From Bacteroidota bacterium (GTDB lineage Bacteria > Bacteroidota > Ignavibacteria > Kapaibacteriales > UBA2268): a stretch of 43,699 nt of DNA. Below the pieces are notes generated by a model. That model did no database searches, was not told the DNA's origin, and saw nothing but the letters and a program-made list of their open reading frames with translations. Of this stretch, positions 11,034 to 31,077 are shown piece after piece (positions within the stretch are counted from its first letter, which is position 1; each line of letters opens with the position of its first letter). The stretch spans positions 1 through 43,699 of the forward strand of contig WRLB01000004.1 of NCBI GenBank assembly GCA_009777815.1, written 5' to 3'. The position numbers were made by a program, and so were the translations under genes.

Positions 11034-11061
11034 AAGGGAACGAGTAATCGTTCCCTTTTTT
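11034..11061 (+). terminator. Intrinsic terminator
   Basis: aagggaacga-gtaa-tcgttccctt followed by ttttt. Confidence 0.85.
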
Positions 11062-11120
11062 TATATGCTATCTGTAAGTGATAAATTGCACATTTCTTTT
11101 TATATTAAGATTTTTAAGCA

Positions 11121-11211
11121 TTTATATATCAATAACTTACGGCGTTGTTTTTTATCTTCCCAAAAAACTTCCCGTTTTTTTTTGCTAAAAATGATATATT
11201 TTATTTACAAA
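11121..11211 (+). repeat. ~90-bp noncoding element, copy 1
   Basis: tttatatatcaataacttacggcgttgttttttatcttcccaaaaaacttcccgttttt...gctaaaaatgatatattttatttacaaa; about 90% identical by eye to the reverse complement of 16339-16427. Confidence 0.85.
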
Positions 11212-11252
11212 AAAAATGTATATTGTATTAAATAATTAAAAAATTAATAGTT

Positions 11253-12524
11253 ATGAAAAGATTTTTAACTCTACTTACTCTAATTTTAGCAAGCCAAAAT
11301 GCAAATGCAGGTGTATTTGATGGCACACAAGGTGAAGGAACTGAAATTTCTCCCTATCTAATTTATAATATTACCGACTTAAAAGAAGTTGCAGATACTA
11401 TTAATCTAACAAATGTTTTTAATAGAAATTTTCATTTCAAACTAATGGCAGATATTACTACGCCCGTTGATTTTAGTATTGGACATAATAATCCACAAAT
11501 TACTCATCGTTTTAGCCATAGTTTTGATGGCAATATGTATAAGATTACAGTTGCAATAAATACATCGCAATATGTAGCATTATTTGGATTTATAGATAGT
11601 AATGGTGTTATTAAAAATTTAAGTGTAGATGGTGAAGTTATATCTGCAACAGGCGAGGTTGGGAGTATTGCAGGTAGGAATTATGGCATCATTCAAAATT
11701 GCACTAATTATGCATCAATAAACTCCTCACTTATTGCTCATGCTGGTGGAATTGTTGGTGTAAATTATGGCATCATTCAAAACTGCATTAACTACGGAGA
11801 AATTATAGGTAATTTATATGCAGGCGGGATTGTTGGTGTAATGTCTGCTGGTCTATTGTTTGGCTGCATAAATGCTGCTAATGTAACGGGAACAACTATT
11901 ACAGGTGGAATTGTTGGATATGCTACTGGCGCACAAGGTTACAACGATGGCGTTATTATTACTAATTGCCTAAACATTGGAACTATAATCTGCGATAATT
12001 ATGTAGGTGGTATTGTAGGACGGGCTGTAAGAACTGATAATAGAGACCCTGCTATGTTTATTCAGAATTGTGTTAATGCAGGTTTTATTAAAGGAACAGG
12101 TCAAAATAATGCTACCGCTGGGATTGTATGTATTTTTTTTGCTCCTTCTTCTGCTGGTGCTGATATCATTATATCTAACTCAATAAATACAGGAGTTGTA
12201 GAAGGGAATAATAATGTAAGTGCTATAATATCTTTCGTAGGGACATCTACATCACTCACACTTACAAATTGCCATTATGATAAGCAATTTTGCAATCATA
12301 AAGGTGTAAATGGCGTAGATATTATAGGACAAGCAGAAGGTCATTTAACAAGAAATATGGTTGGCAGAAAGTTAGCATCTTTGCTCGGCGATATTGATTG
12401 GACCTATGTAGAAAGAGCAACTTTAATAGAATGTCTTTATCCACAACTAAAAGTATTAGACAACACAGATGCAAGCAAAGTTGGTGCCACACCAATATTT
12501 TTATATGATGGGATAAAAGATTAA
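11253..12524 (+). CDS. GLUG-motif repeat surface protein (possibly C-terminally truncated)
   Basis: Signal peptide; repeated GGIVGVNYGIIQNCINYGEI-type units (GLUG); ends abruptly at ...SKVGATPIFLYDGIKD. Confidence 0.75.
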   Translation: MKRFLTLLTLILASQNANAGVFDGTQGEGTEISPYLIYNITDLKEVADTINLTNVFNRNFHFKLMADITTPVDFSIGHNNPQITHRFSHSFDGNMYKITVAINTSQYVALFGFIDSNGVIKNLSVDGEVISATGEVGSIAGRNYGIIQNCTNYASINSSLIAHAGGIVGVNYGIIQNCINYGEIIGNLYAGGIVGVMSAGLLFGCINAANVTGTTITGGIVGYATGAQGYNDGVIITNCLNIGTIICDNYVGGIVGRAVRTDNRDPAMFIQNCVNAGFIKGTGQNNATAGIVCIFFAPSSAGADIIISNSINTGVVEGNNNVSAIISFVGTSTSLTLTNCHYDKQFCNHKGVNGVDIIGQAEGHLTRNMVGRKLASLLGDIDWTYVERATLIECLYPQLKVLDNTDASKVGATPIFLYDGIKD

Positions 12525-12527
12525 ATT

Positions 12528-12590
12528 GTCATATTGTACTTGTTTCATCATCTACATAATAAAGGGATGCCGAAGCGAGTTCGCCATGAC
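12528..12590. repeat. Dispersed two-arm palindromic element
   Basis: gtcatattgtacttgtttcatcatctacataataaagggatgccgaagcgagttcgccatgac. Confidence 0.75.
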
Positions 12591-12616
12591 AACGTTACTT
12601 TATATGAAAAAAATAG

Positions 12617-12624
12617 TATTTTTG
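12617..12624 (+). promoter_or_regulatory. -7 box TATTTTTG upstream of rsmI
   Basis: TAnnTTTG match 20 nt before the ATG at 12645. Confidence 0.5.
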
Positions 12625-12644
12625 TAACAATCAAATTAGATATT

Positions 12645-13481
12645 ATGTTAAAAGCAGAAAAAAGAGGAAAATTATATGTCGTATCTACTCACATCGGAAA
12701 TATAGAAGATGTTACTATTAGAGCAAAAGAAGTATTAAAACTTTGCGACATTGTCGTCTGCGAAGAATTAAAAGTAGGTTCTGTTTTATTAAAAAAATTA
12801 CAAATAAATAAAAAATTATTAATACTTAACGAGCAAAATGAATCCGAAGTAGTATTAGAACTAATACACACTATCAAAGAAGACGATAAAAAAATATCTC
12901 TAATATCTGATTGCGGAACACCTGTTTTTGCTGACCCAGGATTCCAATTAGTAAAAACAGCGCTACTTTCTGATATAGATGTAATAGTTGTCCCCGGTGC
13001 TACAAGTTTGATGACCGCATTGGTCAGAAGTGGAATGGATTTAAATCAATTTTTATATGCAGGATTTCTCTCTCGCAAGCGTGAAGAAAGAATAGAACAA
13101 CTAATTTCTTTATCCAAAGAACCCCGCACTGTTGTTATTTATGATACGCCTTATCGTTTGCTACCCGTATTAGAAGATGCAAGCAAAGTTATGCCTAACA
13201 GAAACATATATATCGGTATGAACCTAACTATGCCATTTGAAACACATCATTACGGGACATTTGCCGAACTATTTAATAAGTTTGAAAAAGAGAAAACAAA
13301 AGCAGAATTTGTTATATGTTTCGAAGGAAATGATAATTCTGAACTTTCTATGCGTTTCGCACCTAAAAAGGAAGATATAATCAAAATAATTCCAAGAAAA
13401 GATACTAAATTTAAAACTAAAAATAATTTTAGAAAACAACAACCACCAAAATTTAGAAAAAGAGATAGAAAGATGAAGTAA
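12645..13481 (+). CDS. rsmI: 16S rRNA (cytidine(1402)-2'-O)-methyltransferase
   Basis: KLYVVSTHIGNIEDVTIRAKEVLKLCDIVVCEE, ISDCGTPVFADPGF, VVPGATSLMTALVRSGM; start moved to MLKAEK because the upstream ORF extension is encoded by the palindromic repeat. Confidence 0.92.
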   Translation: MLKAEKRGKLYVVSTHIGNIEDVTIRAKEVLKLCDIVVCEELKVGSVLLKKLQINKKLLILNEQNESEVVLELIHTIKEDDKKISLISDCGTPVFADPGFQLVKTALLSDIDVIVVPGATSLMTALVRSGMDLNQFLYAGFLSRKREERIEQLISLSKEPRTVVIYDTPYRLLPVLEDASKVMPNRNIYIGMNLTMPFETHHYGTFAELFNKFEKEKTKAEFVICFEGNDNSELSMRFAPKKEDIIKIIPRKDTKFKTKNNFRKQQPPKFRKRDRKMK

Positions 13482-13510
13482 AAGTTTCTTCCTGTTACAT
13501 CTAAAAAATA

Positions 13511-15091
13511 TTACACCAATATATCAATTATTTCTATAACCTTATCAGTATAATTGCTAAACTTATCTGTATTTTTAAAATCAAGCAATGTATGTAATTT
13601 TATTAAAGTATTTTTAGCAATAAGAACATCATTATATTCTTCGTTTATAGTTATATTTTCTATATTTGTAAGTTTTTCGAGCCATCTATTTTTACCATAT
13701 CCGCCAATAATTCTATATTTATTAGCAACAGAAATTAGCGTAATTAAATTATATTTGATATTATCAACTTGGCTTTCTTTATTAAGATAATTAATCAGCA
13801 ATTTGCAATTATGTAGACGTTCTAAATCTGTTCTTCTCCATCTTCTAACAACTAATTCCAGCAAATAAAATATCTGCACAATATGATCGCTACTTGCTAA
13901 ATCATATCTATCAGATATATTTACAACAACTCCACTTTCACTAAAATACTCTCTAAATAGTTCAGCATAATTATCGGATTGGCGACTGCAAATACACATA
14001 TCAGAAAAAGGAATACCCTGCTTTTTATTTAAATCAACACACAGACGGACAATATTTTTAACTTCCTCTGCTTGATTTTCTGCTTCATAAATAGATATTT
14101 GTTTTTTTAGATTAGGGTTAAATAGTTTCACATTATCATTAAATAGCCACGTTTTTATGTTATTTACGATGCCATAAGTATTATCTAATTCTAAATTAGT
14201 ATTTAGTTCATTTGTTACTAATCTTCTAACATTTTGTGGCAAATTATCAATCATCGGACCGCTTTCTTTACTATAATCTATGCTAACTAAAACGGGAACA
14301 TTGCATTCACTAAACAGCGACACAAACTTTGCTTCGGGCATCTTAAATTCAGTAAAATCATAAAAATAAATCATACTATCTTTATCCAAAAAAGATAAAT
14401 CGTTCATATTGAATTGACTCTCAATAATAGCATTAAATATACCTACTTCATCAGTTTTATAATACTTTCTGTCATGCCGTGCTTGACTCGGCATCTCTTT
14501 ATTAGAATAATCAGGAGAATTAATCAAATATTCGTTATGACAATCGTTGCTGTTAGCCGCTAATAAATCCTCATATAACGAATATATTTTAGTTATATCT
14601 GAAAATCTTTTATCAGCCGATGTAATACCTTCCTGATAAACTAATTCATCTTGCATACTTTTAGAAGTAATTCCATCTTTTCGTAGCCCATTTACAACAT
14701 CAAAAATCTTTTCCAATATATTATAGGAAATACGATTATAATATACCAAACTTCCTTCGTTATGCAATATTTTCATTGCCTCTTCCATCAAACTTAACAA
14801 AGCAGCATCCGAATAACAACAGACATTATTATGTTTTTTTATTTCTTTAAGAACCAAAGTAGCAAAGTCAATTAAATTATAGATATGTAATTTAGTTATT
14901 GCTTTATTGTGGTGGGTGTAGTATTGTTTTATCCATTCTTTTTTTATGTAGTTGACGTATTTTCTTGTAGGAACGACTAAAACAGCCGATGAGCATTTAT
15001 CTTTTTTTATATAATATTCTAAAAATGCTTCGAGCGATGTCGGATAGATATTTCTATTATACGAACGATTATAAACTAATTGCATATACAA
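13511..15091 (-). CDS. AddB-like ATP-dependent helicase/nuclease subunit, apparently lacking the C-terminal nuclease half
   Basis: AVLVVPTRKYVNYIKKEWIKQYY near the N-terminus; QAEEVKNIVRLCVDLNKKQGIPFSDMCICSRQSDNYAELFREYF is typical of the UvrD-like/AddB fold; only 526 aa. First codon of the ORF is TTG; ATG at 15085 is a plausible start. Confidence 0.6.
   Translation of the reverse strand: MYMQLVYNRSYNRNIYPTSLEAFLEYYIKKDKCSSAVLVVPTRKYVNYIKKEWIKQYYTHHNKAITKLHIYNLIDFATLVLKEIKKHNNVCCYSDAALLSLMEEAMKILHNEGSLVYYNRISYNILEKIFDVVNGLRKDGITSKSMQDELVYQEGITSADKRFSDITKIYSLYEDLLAANSNDCHNEYLINSPDYSNKEMPSQARHDRKYYKTDEVGIFNAIIESQFNMNDLSFLDKDSMIYFYDFTEFKMPEAKFVSLFSECNVPVLVSIDYSKESGPMIDNLPQNVRRLVTNELNTNLELDNTYGIVNNIKTWLFNDNVKLFNPNLKKQISIYEAENQAEEVKNIVRLCVDLNKKQGIPFSDMCICSRQSDNYAELFREYFSESGVVVNISDRYDLASSDHIVQIFYLLELVVRRWRRTDLERLHNCKLLINYLNKESQVDNIKYNLITLISVANKYRIIGGYGKNRWLEKLTNIENITINEEYNDVLIAKNTLIKLHTLLDFKNTDKFSNYTDKVIEIIDILV
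14471..14541. repeat. Palindromic element inside the addB-like CDS
   Basis: gtcatgccgtgcttgactcggcatctc...ggagaattaatcaaatattcgttatgac; reads in frame as CHNEYLINSPDYSNKEMPSQARHD on the minus strand. Confidence 0.7.
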
Positions 15092-15096
15092 AAATA
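15089..15096 (-). promoter_or_regulatory. -7 box TATTTTTG (minus strand) overlapping the annotated addB-like start
   Basis: caaaaata on +; ends 3 nt before an in-frame ATG (15085). Confidence 0.4.
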
Positions 15097-15159
15097 ATGA
15101 AAAAAAGAGTATGTAATAAAGTCACCTCTAAAATTGTGACAATAACGCAAATATCTTTA

Positions 15160-16104
15160 TTATCTTTTTGGTCTTCTTTGGTCGTCTAATTTGTAAGTTG
15201 CGTAGCAGGGCACAAGACGTTTTGCTTGATAAGTATTTACGGCGACATTTTCTTTTTCGCAAAATGTTCCGAACCAGAATGGCAAATTCTTTTTATCATC
15301 TTGCAAATATAGACGCAAAGTAGTAATATAAGGGTATTCTCTCATTACAATAAATGATTGATGTGGCGGTTTAGTTGCAGGAATATATTGTCCCGTAGAA
15401 TCATTATAACCGACACGCAAAATCTTATAAAACTTTCCTTGAACTTGCGATAAATAACATATACCAATCGCTTTAGAATTGTCTTTAACATATTCTAAAA
15501 CAGAATCAGTTGTAGGCAATAATTTAGGATGATTAGAAACTTTTTTTTGCTTGCAAATAAGATTTACAAAGTTGCCATATTCTGAAGAGTTTTGCTCGGC
15601 AATTACAAATTCAGGTTCAAAAGTTAGATTGTTTAATTGACTTTGTAGCGATTTATGATTAGTAAAATGTTCTGTTAAAATATCAGTATTTATTGTGTCT
15701 AATGGGGAATCTGCTTGAACAAAGAAAACTATTCCATCATTTACAAGTTCCATTTTATAAAAGTCAGGAACATTATATTCATTTAATAGCGAATCTTCAT
15801 CTCGTAAATAATCTCGTCCTATAATTGCTACGCGTGTTTTACCTGATAGCAAATGCGATGTAGCATTTCGCGAATTAACATAATTGATTGCAAGTTCTAC
15901 TTTGGGATAACGCTCTTGATACATAAAAAATATAGAATCCATAGCAAATTGATAAGAAGCATCGCAATAAACTTCAATCCTGCCTGAATCTATTGTTTCA
16001 GTAGTTGGCACTTTGTTTTGCCTTTCACCACACGAGCAAAGCAAAATTACTACAAAAAGCAAAATAAGATTATTATTTTTCATCATTTTCATTCTTGTTT
16101 TCAT
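15160..16104 (-). CDS. PstS-like phosphate-binding-type lipoprotein
   Basis: Lipobox LLCSC; GRIEVYCDASYQFAMDSIFFMYQERYPKVELAINYVNSRNATSHLLSGKTRVAIIGRD is typical of PBP-like/PstS domains. Confidence 0.65.
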   Translation of the reverse strand: MKTRMKMMKNNNLILLFVVILLCSCGERQNKVPTTETIDSGRIEVYCDASYQFAMDSIFFMYQERYPKVELAINYVNSRNATSHLLSGKTRVAIIGRDYLRDEDSLLNEYNVPDFYKMELVNDGIVFFVQADSPLDTINTDILTEHFTNHKSLQSQLNNLTFEPEFVIAEQNSSEYGNFVNLICKQKKVSNHPKLLPTTDSVLEYVKDNSKAIGICYLSQVQGKFYKILRVGYNDSTGQYIPATKPPHQSFIVMREYPYITTLRLYLQDDKKNLPFWFGTFCEKENVAVNTYQAKRLVPCYATYKLDDQRRPKR

Positions 16105-16297
16105 TATTTTTAAAATTATATTCTTTATATTTCATTCTGTATAAAACTATTCTATAAACCCCAAATAAAACAAACACTCCGCCCATAACTCTAAAAAGGA
16201 CAGCATCTTCTTTTGCGGCAGGTATTACACCAATAATAAATACTATTCCTATGATAATTATAGAAATTTTAACAATGTAATTGATTATGTGTAGCAT
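16073..16297 (-). CDS. Small two-TM membrane protein
   Basis: 74 aa; two hydrophobic helices; 32-bp overlap with the PstS-like ORF; TATTTTTG box 22 nt upstream. Confidence 0.6.
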   Translation of the reverse strand: MLHIINYIVKISIIIIGIVFIIGVIPAAKEDAVLFRVMGGVFVLFGVYRIVLYRMKYKEYNFKNNENKNENDEK

Positions 16298-16318
16298 ATT
16301 TTATTTATTATATTTTTA

Positions 16319-16326
16319 CAAAAATA
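16319..16326 (-). promoter_or_regulatory. -7 box TATTTTTG for 16073..16297
   Basis: caaaaata on + strand. Confidence 0.5.
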
Positions 16327-16338
16327 ATGTTTTTTTTA

Positions 16339-16427
16339 TTTGTAAATTAAATATATCATTTTTAGCAAAAAAATGGGAAGTTTTTTGAGAAGGTAAAAAA
16401 TAACGCCGTAAGTTATTGATATGTAAA
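16339..16427 (-). repeat. ~90-bp noncoding element, copy 2 (inverted relative to copy 1)
   Basis: Reverse complement tttacatatcaataacttacggcgttattttttaccttctcaaaaaacttcccattttt..gctaaaaatgatatatttaatttacaaa. Confidence 0.85.
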
Positions 16428-28720: not shown

Positions 28721-30301
28721 ATGGATATGAAATTATTAAATATTAAAGAAGCAAGTGTATGGGCTACAAATTGGACGGAGAAAAATATAACTCCGTCTAA
28801 TATCTCTTATCTTATACAATATGGGCGTATAAAAAAGTTCGGTAATAATGGCACTACGCAAGTTTCAGAAGCAGATTTAATAGAGTATTATGGAGAATAT
28901 AGCGTTTGTAGAGAAGCGTTTTTTAAAGAAAAATTAGGTGAAAATTTAAATTGGGCATTGTCTTTTGAGCAGTATAAAGAAGCAGAAACAACAAAACATA
29001 TTCATCGTTTGCATCCGTATAAGGGTAAGTTTATTCCGCAATTAGTAGAATATTTTTTAGATAATCATACTGATAATTTTAAAACGCAAACTTATTTTAA
29101 GTCAGGTGATATTGTTTTAGATCCATTTTCAGGGAGCGGAACAACGATGGTGCAAGCGTGTGAATTAGGTATGAATGCAATAGGAGTTGATGTTTCGGCG
29201 TTTAATACTTTGATTGCAAATTGCAAAATTGCTCGCTATGATATTGCAGATGTTTTAGATGAAATAAAACATATTACTTTAAGTTTAGAAAAATTTGTTA
29301 ATGATTTTAATGTTATTGATTTTGAATATAAACTTTTACAAGAATTAAACACATTTAATAGTAAATACTTCACTGTTCCTGATTATAAATTTAATGTTAG
29401 AAAAGGCAAAATTGATGAAAAAGAATATGGATTAGAAAAAGAAAATCAATTTTTGCCAACTTATGAAAAACTAATAGCGAAATACAACATAAAATTAAAA
29501 CAAGAAAAAAACGAAACATTTTTAGATAAGTGGTATTCGCAACATATTAGAAATGAAATTGACTTTGTTTTTGAAAAAATAAAAAATATACAAAACACTA
29601 ATACAAAAAAAATAATTAGTATAATTTTAAGTAGAACAATTCGTAGTTGTAGAAGCACAACACACGCTGATTTAGGAACACTTTTAGAGCCAATTACTAC
29701 CACTTATTATTGCAAAAAACACGGAAAATTATGTAAGCCATTGTTCTCTATTTTGAAATGGTGGAAAACTTATTCTAAAGATACAATTAAAAGATTGCAA
29801 CAATTTGACAAATTAAGAACAAATACATTTCAACTTTGTTTGACAGGAGATAGCAGGAATATTGATATTTTAGAGCAAGTAAAAAAGAAAAATGCTGTGT
29901 TCGGAAGGTTATTAGAAGAACAAAAAATAAAAGGAATTTTTTCTTCGCCGCCTTATGTTGGCTTGATTGATTATCACGAACAACACGCTTACGCCTACGA
30001 TTTATTTGGTTTTGAAAGAAATGATGAGTTAGAAATTGGTCCGCTTTTTAGAGGACAAAAAAAAGATGCACAGCAAAGTTATATACAAGGAATTTCTGAT
30101 GTGCTAAATAATTGCAAGCGTTTTTTAGTAGATGATTATGATATATTTCTTGTAGCAAACGATAAAAATAATATGTATCCAACTATTGCAGAAAATACAG
30201 GAATGCAAATTATAAATCAATTTCATCGTCCCGTATTAAACAGAACAGAAAAAGATAAAACCGCATATTCAGAAACAATATTTCATTTGAAAAAGAAGTA
30301 A
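28721..30301 (+). CDS. Type II DNA methyltransferase (SPPY motif) with N-terminal HTH-like domain
   Basis: DIVLDPFSGSGTTMVQACELGMNAIGVDVS (motif I) and GIFSSPPYVGLIDYHEQHAYAYDLF (motif IV, SPPY); N-terminal LNIKEASVWATNW...NISYLIQYGRIKKFGNNGTTQVSEADLIEYYG. Confidence 0.88.
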   Translation: MDMKLLNIKEASVWATNWTEKNITPSNISYLIQYGRIKKFGNNGTTQVSEADLIEYYGEYSVCREAFFKEKLGENLNWALSFEQYKEAETTKHIHRLHPYKGKFIPQLVEYFLDNHTDNFKTQTYFKSGDIVLDPFSGSGTTMVQACELGMNAIGVDVSAFNTLIANCKIARYDIADVLDEIKHITLSLEKFVNDFNVIDFEYKLLQELNTFNSKYFTVPDYKFNVRKGKIDEKEYGLEKENQFLPTYEKLIAKYNIKLKQEKNETFLDKWYSQHIRNEIDFVFEKIKNIQNTNTKKIISIILSRTIRSCRSTTHADLGTLLEPITTTYYCKKHGKLCKPLFSILKWWKTYSKDTIKRLQQFDKLRTNTFQLCLTGDSRNIDILEQVKKKNAVFGRLLEEQKIKGIFSSPPYVGLIDYHEQHAYAYDLFGFERNDELEIGPLFRGQKKDAQQSYIQGISDVLNNCKRFLVDDYDIFLVANDKNNMYPTIAENTGMQIINQFHRPVLNRTEKDKTAYSETIFHLKKK

Positions 30302-30303
30302 TT

Positions 30304-31077
30304 ATGGCATTAACAAAAGAACAAAAACAAGATATACAAGAAGTAATTAAAACTTGTTTAAGAAATAAATTCAAAAATTATAACCCTGAAAGCAATAATA
30401 TGCCTTTTCATTTTCGTTTGCTTGGGCGAGATAGGATGGCTTTATATTCGTTTATTCAATCGTTAAATACAACTTTTGGCACGTCCATTTTTGAACCTGT
30501 TGCTGTTGCTTTGGCTAAAAATAATTTTGTAAAAGTAGCATCACAATATATTGTAGGTGATACAATTTTTGAAAATTGTCAACAAAGTATTCAACATATT
30601 ATAAATCAACTCACTGTTGGTGCTACTCCCGATAAAAATAAAGAAATTGAAATATTAAAGAAATCATTAAAAGGAAATAAAAATCAAATAAAAACTATTA
30701 AAGTTGATTTATTTGTTGAAAATAAAAAAGGAGAAATGTTTCTATTTGATTTAAAAACTGCTAAACCAAATATTAGTAATTTTAAAGATTTTAAGCGGAC
30801 ATTATTAGAATGGGCTGGTATTGCTTTAACGCAAGATAGCAACAAAAATATAAATACTTTGGTTGCTATACCTTACAATCCATATCATCCAGAACCTTAT
30901 GCTCGTTGGACGATGAAAGGAATGCTTGATTTAGAAAAAGAATTAAAAGTTGCTGAAGAGTTTTGGGATTTTCTTGGTGGCGAAGGGGCATATCAGGAAT
31001 TACTTGACTGCTTTGAAAAAGCAGGCATAGAATTAAGAACCGAAATAGATAATTATTTTAATAAATTTAATTACTAA
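30304..31077 (+). CDS. TdeIII/MjaII-like type II restriction endonuclease
   Basis: 257 aa directly after the MTase; FHFRLLGRDRMALYSFIQSLNTTFGTSIFEPVA and IKVDLFVENKKGEMFLFDLKTAKPN (D-x(n)-DLK PD-(D/E)XK-like core) resemble the TdeIII/MjaII family. Confidence 0.75.
   Translation: MALTKEQKQDIQEVIKTCLRNKFKNYNPESNNMPFHFRLLGRDRMALYSFIQSLNTTFGTSIFEPVAVALAKNNFVKVASQYIVGDTIFENCQQSIQHIINQLTVGATPDKNKEIEILKKSLKGNKNQIKTIKVDLFVENKKGEMFLFDLKTAKPNISNFKDFKRTLLEWAGIALTQDSNKNINTLVAIPYNPYHPEPYARWTMKGMLDLEKELKVAEEFWDFLGGEGAYQELLDCFEKAGIELRTEIDNYFNKFNY

Follow-up and report, generated by a model that had tools for sequence, protein, structure and literature searches.

Two noncoding sequences of about 90 nt, which lie in opposite orientations upstream of two genes in a 43,699-nt contig of a Bacteroidota bacterium (Kapaibacteriales; GenBank WRLB01000004.1; this whole stretch is referred to below as the window), are not a pair of special switches, but members of a small, scattered family of repeats with at least 11 copies. 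We consider it rather likely that the copies of this family are a lineage-specific, promoter-bearing dispersed repeat that resembles miniature inverted-repeat transposable elements (MITEs), that is, a "mobile promoter". The repeat family is real and well defined; its membership among the MITEs is not formally established, as neither terminal repeats nor target duplications nor a parent element were found. Promoter-carrying dispersed repeats are already known as a kind, and the family described here is a new example. The window is contig 4 (C4) of a draft genome (G000) of 1.94 Mb in 121 contigs, which is about 73% complete (27% missing).

The two copies in the window, copy 1 (C4a) and copy 2 (C4b), are 91 nt and 89 nt long, respectively, and are 93% identical without gaps, with one 2-nt indel, a similarity that is far beyond chance. 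Their match terminates in TTTACAAA, and the distance from the end of this stretch to the ATG is exactly 41 nt in both cases (ATG at 11253 on the plus strand for copy 1 and at 16297 on the minus strand for copy 2). In these respects, as well as for the promoter-like box in the spacer (an exact TAnnTTTG for copy 2, the variant TATATTGT for copy 1), a preliminary description of the matching copies at 11121-11211 (+) and 16427-16339 (-) was confirmed. Its picture of a two-copy feature did not hold. With copy 1 as the BLASTN query against its own genome, copy 2 was recovered with E = 1.1e-31 and six further copies with E = 7e-33 to 4e-15, and the same 11 copies at 10 loci emerged from BLASTN, from a mismatch pattern and from a sequence model. 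The reversed pattern, which served as a control, gave 1 match compared with 12 for the true pattern, the 12th of which (3 mismatches) lies inside a coding region. Apart from copies 1 and 2, there are seven single copies and two that are in tandem or on a shared contig at large distance. The tandem on C6 (L078:1180-1379) consists of two copies with a 99-bp period, and in each unit a TAnnTTTG box precedes the core by 18 nt on the left.

Five of the copies (C4a, C4b, C14b, C35 and C109) are mutually 85–93% identical, all point their right end at a gene, and apparently form a young subfamily. Copies 1 and 2 are each about 91% identical to the C14b copy, which precedes rplP, compared with 93% to each other. 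In addition, two probable diverged copies, with near-full model alignments at E ~0.01, were found at C32:50-130 and C114:3752-3833 (L172, L174), and by their sequences these places look like a diverged subfamily. Their central inverted repeat differs from that of the main copies on both arms (AATATGT-TACAGGC-ACATATT compared with AATAAC-TTACGGC-GTTATT). This exchange of the palindrome (AC/GT to TGT/ACA) is suggestive, but it is a single comparison and is not claimed here. A sigma-54-like string, TGGCACGCTTTTTGAT, adjoins the C114 copy.

Within the sampled genomes, the family is lineage-specific and confined to one species. BLASTN in 40 relatives yielded no convincing copies, only two weak partial matches with E values of 4e-4 and 7e-4. 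The model search of 55 genomes of the family, including a genus-mate, found strong matches nowhere but in the own genome, the best match outside having E = 5e-4; about a dozen of these outside matches were inspected, and they look like chance matches, as several seem to be coding and a resemblance to the repeat was seen in none. One sequence in the relative G001 (C70:31495) resembles the core, yet appears to sit in a reading frame and was rejected. A scan of public genomes with the core pattern returned 14 exact matches, none of them with flanking similarity. In viral contigs, the strict pattern had 0 matches and the loose pattern 4, and searches of plasmids and phages gave 0 matches.

The element is about 90–120 bp long, AT-rich and noncoding, and with its 11 copies at 10 intergenic loci it has the size and copy number of a MITE. 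In the alignment, the 33-nt core TTTAYAWATCAATRRCTTACGGCGTTATTTTTT is followed by a pyrimidine/A-tract stretch and then by the right end GCTAAAAATGATATATTTTATTTACAAA. Two types of left flank were observed, TACTAAAAAATATCTC or GATTTTTAAGYR, and in four copies GATTTTTAAGYR is preceded by a TAnnTTTG box, 18 nt from the core. The pairwise divergence between the copies is 7% in the core and 22–25% in the remainder (permutation p = 2e-4).

The right end differs in nature from the rest. From the regions upstream of 133 reading frames, the core promoter of this genome was deduced as TTTACAAA-N7-12-TAnnTTTG; the TAnnTTTG box occurs in 76 of the 133 regions, the reversed motif in 28. TAnnTTTG is the known -7 box of the sigma-A of Bacteroidota (PMC9723704). 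Furthermore, unrelated genes of this genome bear the near-identical string TTTACAAAAAAAACCTTATTTTTGTA. Judged by its sequence, the conserved right end, made up of TTTACAAA and the box, is a generic promoter, so that part of the apparent element would be an ordinary promoter, and the shared 41 bp would therefore represent promoter plus a short untranslated leader. An exact TAnnTTTG lies 94–101 nt from the element start in C4b, C14b, C35, C109, C14a and C29, and the variant box of copy 1, which has one base fewer between TA and TTG, lies at 98 nt. Thus, a promoter motif lies within or at the end of the repeat and faces the neighbouring gene, by sequence only. The copy 1 box also matches the TAnnTTGY motif (SM5), which was assigned to an alternative sigma factor in a study of Flavobacterium psychrophilum (PMC9723704). 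The operon upstream of copy 1 ends in an intrinsic terminator (Table 1); therefore, copy 1 starts a new transcription unit.

The position relative to genes is non-random. Nine of the 10 loci are 42–65 nt from a start codon, compared with 14% of random intergenic points (850 kb, same genome) at 35–70 nt (p = 2e-7) and with 13 of 93 intergenic regions for an unrelated abundant dispersed repeat that was used as positional control (Fisher p = 2e-6); these p-values are approximate and somewhat optimistic, as the element ends were set after viewing the alignment, and the genes in the test were simple reading-frame calls. The control repeat, TGAAACAAGTTCAGCA with an inverted partner, occurs in about 93 intergenic regions in 850 kb and is unrelated to the element. 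At six loci the right end is directed toward the gene (the GLUG-type gene, the small membrane protein gene, rplP, a second GLUG gene, prs and a gene for a small secreted protein), with right-end-to-start spacings of 41, 41, 60, 45, 45 and about 53 nt. The left end faces the gene at three loci, those of a PMT-like gene, an ECF sigma factor gene and lon, and the C6 tandem pair faces no start codon. A constant placement about 41 bp upstream in the same orientation, as anticipated from the two copies in the window, is thus replaced by spacings of 41–60 nt, a 6 versus 3 split in orientation and one tandem without a start. The preliminary description had set two outcomes against its proposal, random placement relative to genes or an occurrence only at the ends of transposase-bearing units. 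Neither was obtained, as placement is non-random and no such unit was found. The genes adjoining the copies (GLUG proteins, rplP, prs, ECF sigma factor, lon) have no obvious common function. Of the element, a third GLUG-like gene, on C103, has just the right part together with the promoter, AAAAATGATATATTTTATTTATAAAAAAAACCTTATTTTTGTA.

Related genomes lack the core at the corresponding genes. In G001 and/or G003, no core precedes the orthologs of seven genes, namely prs, rplP, lon, C29_r, the ECF sigma gene, the PMT-like gene and the small membrane gene. In G003, the order of the small membrane and substrate-binding genes is identical and the element is absent. The prs gene lies behind tRNA-Gln in four relatives (G001, G003, G006 and G009; the tRNA gene is directly upstream, about 40 nt before the start codon, as confirmed by ARAGORN in G001 and by reading the sequence in the other three). 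In the own genome (C109; L074, 444-592, compared with L103-L106), this tRNA-Gln is gone from that position, where the element and a predicted promoter of prs itself are found instead. Downstream of prs, at L074:1556-1627, there is a different tRNA-Gln (CTG). In both members of the genus (L071:5202-5815; L111 in G001), rplP-rpmC no longer adjoin the ribosomal-protein genes that precede them in G003, G006 and G009, and the DNA upstream of rplP differs in G001. We also considered whether the copies mark rearrangement breakpoints: their neighbours are non-adjacent in G001, but the general loss of gene order there makes this uninformative.

Taken together, these observations suggest the following scenario. 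The repeat unit sits just upstream of, and partly overlaps, the predicted core promoter TTTACAAA-N7-12-TAnnTTTG, and an arriving copy would supply, extend or replace the upstream half of the promoter of a gene. Copies of the young subfamily probably bring the whole promoter, including the -7 box. The unit may spread as DNA within the lineage, either with a transposase acting in trans or by ectopic recombination. The promoters at the copies are presumably active, and the core is presumably conserved because a protein recognizes it. Should the promoters indeed be active, the essential genes prs and rplP would have switched their promoter through the arrival of a dispersed repeat; if they are inactive, this is an ordinary lineage-specific repeat. 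The case also illustrates how two copies of an upstream block at fixed spacing, which on their own resemble an operator or a riboswitch, can turn out to belong to a repeat family that lies next to a generic promoter.

Several results weigh against a MITE-like mobile promoter. Terminal inverted repeats are only AT-rich, imperfect and different between the copies, and the 8-bp pair ATATATCA/TGATATAT is perfect in copy 1 alone. No target-site duplication is evident in the flanks of the copies, the left flanks are of two types, and the element boundaries are fuzzy. A clean empty site could not be shown in the relatives, as gene order outside of operons is lost even within the genus. No transposase-bearing element with related ends was found in the draft genome, 27% of which is missing, and the Y1 transposase family PF01797 is absent from the draft, whereas the control genomes were positive. 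Conservation of the core exceeds that of the remainder about threefold, contrary to what neutral decay following insertion would predict. The optimistic p-values of the positional test belong here as well.

The own genome does contain decayed transposase-like genes together with internally deleted derivatives, with the ends TATACTCTCCTCTGTCATAGATTG (Table 1). We take this family to be IS630-like, as recognized by eye; Pfam gave no match for the short fragment. One derivative adjoins the C14a copy on its right and thereby cuts the C14a promoter off from any gene. An IS630-like origin of the element was rejected, as the C14a fragment is a separate insertion-sequence relic inserted alongside and its ends (TATACTCTCCTCTGTCATAGATTG) differ.

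What speaks most for the main rival explanation is how strongly the core is conserved. On this reading, which we regard as possible, though somewhat unlikely, the core would be the binding site of a regulator, an activator or repressor, about 80–110 bp upstream of the transcription start, and the copies would constitute a lineage-specific regulon, with promoters copied among genes. The internal inverted repeat AATAAC-N7-GTTATT, replaced by AATATGT-N7-ACATATT at the same place in the diverged copies, and the near-fixed offset to the -7 box are also consistent with such a site. However, the core never occurs outside of the longer repeat, all strong matches being the same 11 copies; three loci are in reverse orientation and the C6 tandem has no orientation to a gene; and the target genes are functionally unrelated, rplP and prs among them, and seven of their orthologs in G001/G003 lack the site. 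It is improbable, in our estimate, that the 33-nt core is a protein recognition site travelling with its own core promoter, a self-spreading regulatory cassette through which genes unrelated to one another (rplP, prs and those for surface proteins) have come under a common regulator in a single species lineage. Spread by ectopic homologous recombination or gene conversion among AT-rich promoters, seeded from the promoters of GLUG genes and involving no mobile element, appears quite improbable. The GLUG paralogs at C4a and C35 carry the whole element and the GLUG-like C103 its right part with the promoter, and the copies combine left-flank types with right ends in different ways, as recombination would have it. 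Yet most loci have no homology beyond the unit, and the copies before lon and the ECF sigma gene, as well as the C6 tandem, have no neighbouring GLUG gene.

Two further possibilities, both raised in the preliminary description, deserve very little credence. Copies 1 and 2 could be inverted recombination sites that flip the intervening 5.3-kb segment, and they are indeed mutually inverted and 93% identical. This identity, however, is near the 91% that each shares with C14b; the other copies are singles plus one direct tandem pair, with no close inverted pairs; the copies whose surroundings were examined have no visible recombinase gene next to them; and both genes would move with their promoters, so that only the outer flanks would change and no obvious switch would result. 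A flipping segment is therefore not needed to account for the two copies. It is likewise very unlikely that the element is a structured 5' leader or an attenuator RNA. Copy 1 alone folds better than shuffled sequences (z -3.1), and the box 18 nt left of the core in four copies would lead to transcription of the core. Nevertheless, seven of the eight folded copies do no better than their shuffled versions, the consensus structure amounts to a single 6-bp A-U-rich hairpin of -1.35 kcal/mol in which no pair has changed on both sides, the core lies upstream of the predicted transcription start in most copies, and there is no Rfam match. Of the initial proposal of a shared upstream site or a structured leader, the placement in a promoter region with a box in the spacer is thus retained and the leader is not.

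Table 1. Coordinates of the repeat copies, their surroundings in the window, and other sequence families of the genome
Feature	Position	Strand	Remarks
Copy 1 of the dispersed element (C4a)	11121..11211	+	Left flank type 2 GATTTTTAAGCA at 11109-11120
33-nt core of copy 1, TTTATATATCAATAACTTACGGCGTTGTTTTTT	11121..11153	+	Contains 6-bp inverted repeat AATAAC-TTACGGC-GTT(A/G)TT
Predicted core promoter of the gene 3' of copy 1	11204..11226	+	TTTACAAA-type stretch plus box TATATTGT (11219-11226); overlaps the right end of copy 1
Gene 3' of copy 1	11253..12524	+	Repeat-rich secreted protein; 48% identity to the GLUG-motif protein 3' of the C35 copy
Copy 2 of the dispersed element (C4b)	16339..16427	-	Left flank type 1 TACTAAAAAATATCTC at 16443-16428
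33-nt core of copy 2, TTTACATATCAATAACTTACGGCGTTATTTTTT	16395..16427	-	Pattern and alignment
Exact TAnnTTTG box TATTTTTG of the gene 3' of copy 2	16319..16326	-	Sequence
Small membrane protein gene 3' of copy 2	16073..16297	-	Open reading frame; followed by substrate-binding protein gene 15160-16104
Intrinsic terminator of the operon 5' of copy 1	11034..11057	+	1 found, 0.0 expected in shuffles
All loci of the element	C4a, C4b (window), C14a, C14b, C35, C109, C30, C44, C29, C6		C29, right half lost; C6, tandem pair
Control repeat, examples	Window 24363, 25721, 27371, 42571		
Decayed transposase-like family (L084, L091-L098)	C14:350-475, C43:16971, C40:13880 and 13377, C48:15061, C88:5731, C36:76, C18:26601, C9:12345		

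Elsewhere in the window, the region 28721-31077 contains a DNA methylase gene (N6_N4_Mtase, E 2e-15) followed by a 257-aa open reading frame, possibly a restriction-modification pair.

MITEs with outward promoters upstream of genes provide a precedent for the family (PMC10969869), among them BrickBuilt, a MITE-like element of Porphyromonas gingivalis, which also belongs to the Bacteroidota (PMC4596501). Like the element described here, BrickBuilt is dispersed in one species, intergenic and equipped with promoter elements; it has 19 copies in one strain, always intergenic, and its authors, citing the concept of putative mobile promoters, propose that it may be one (PMC4596501). In contrast to the present element, BrickBuilt has a core of 23-nt tandem repeats, terminal inverted repeats related to the IS5-family ISPg, and empty sites between strains; by comparison of the descriptions, the present element has no such tandem array, and neither a terminal inverted repeat nor a target duplication nor an empty site could be shown for it. 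The Correia elements of Neisseria are also short dispersed repeats that lie mostly immediately upstream of genes and have outward promoters, which are predicted in our case (PMC10969869). The Correia elements differ in having an IHF site, processing by RNase III and well-defined terminal inverted repeats, none of which is established for the present element. The repetitive extragenic palindromic (REP) elements, mobilized by Y1 transposases (RAYT), share with it the format of a short intergenic repeat with a small palindrome, but differ in that the draft genome has no Y1 transposase and that the core is located upstream of promoters. Putative mobile promoters, or horizontal regulatory transfer, are usually defined across genomes. 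The family described here shares with them homologous promoter blocks before non-homologous genes, with the difference that all of its copies reside within one genome.

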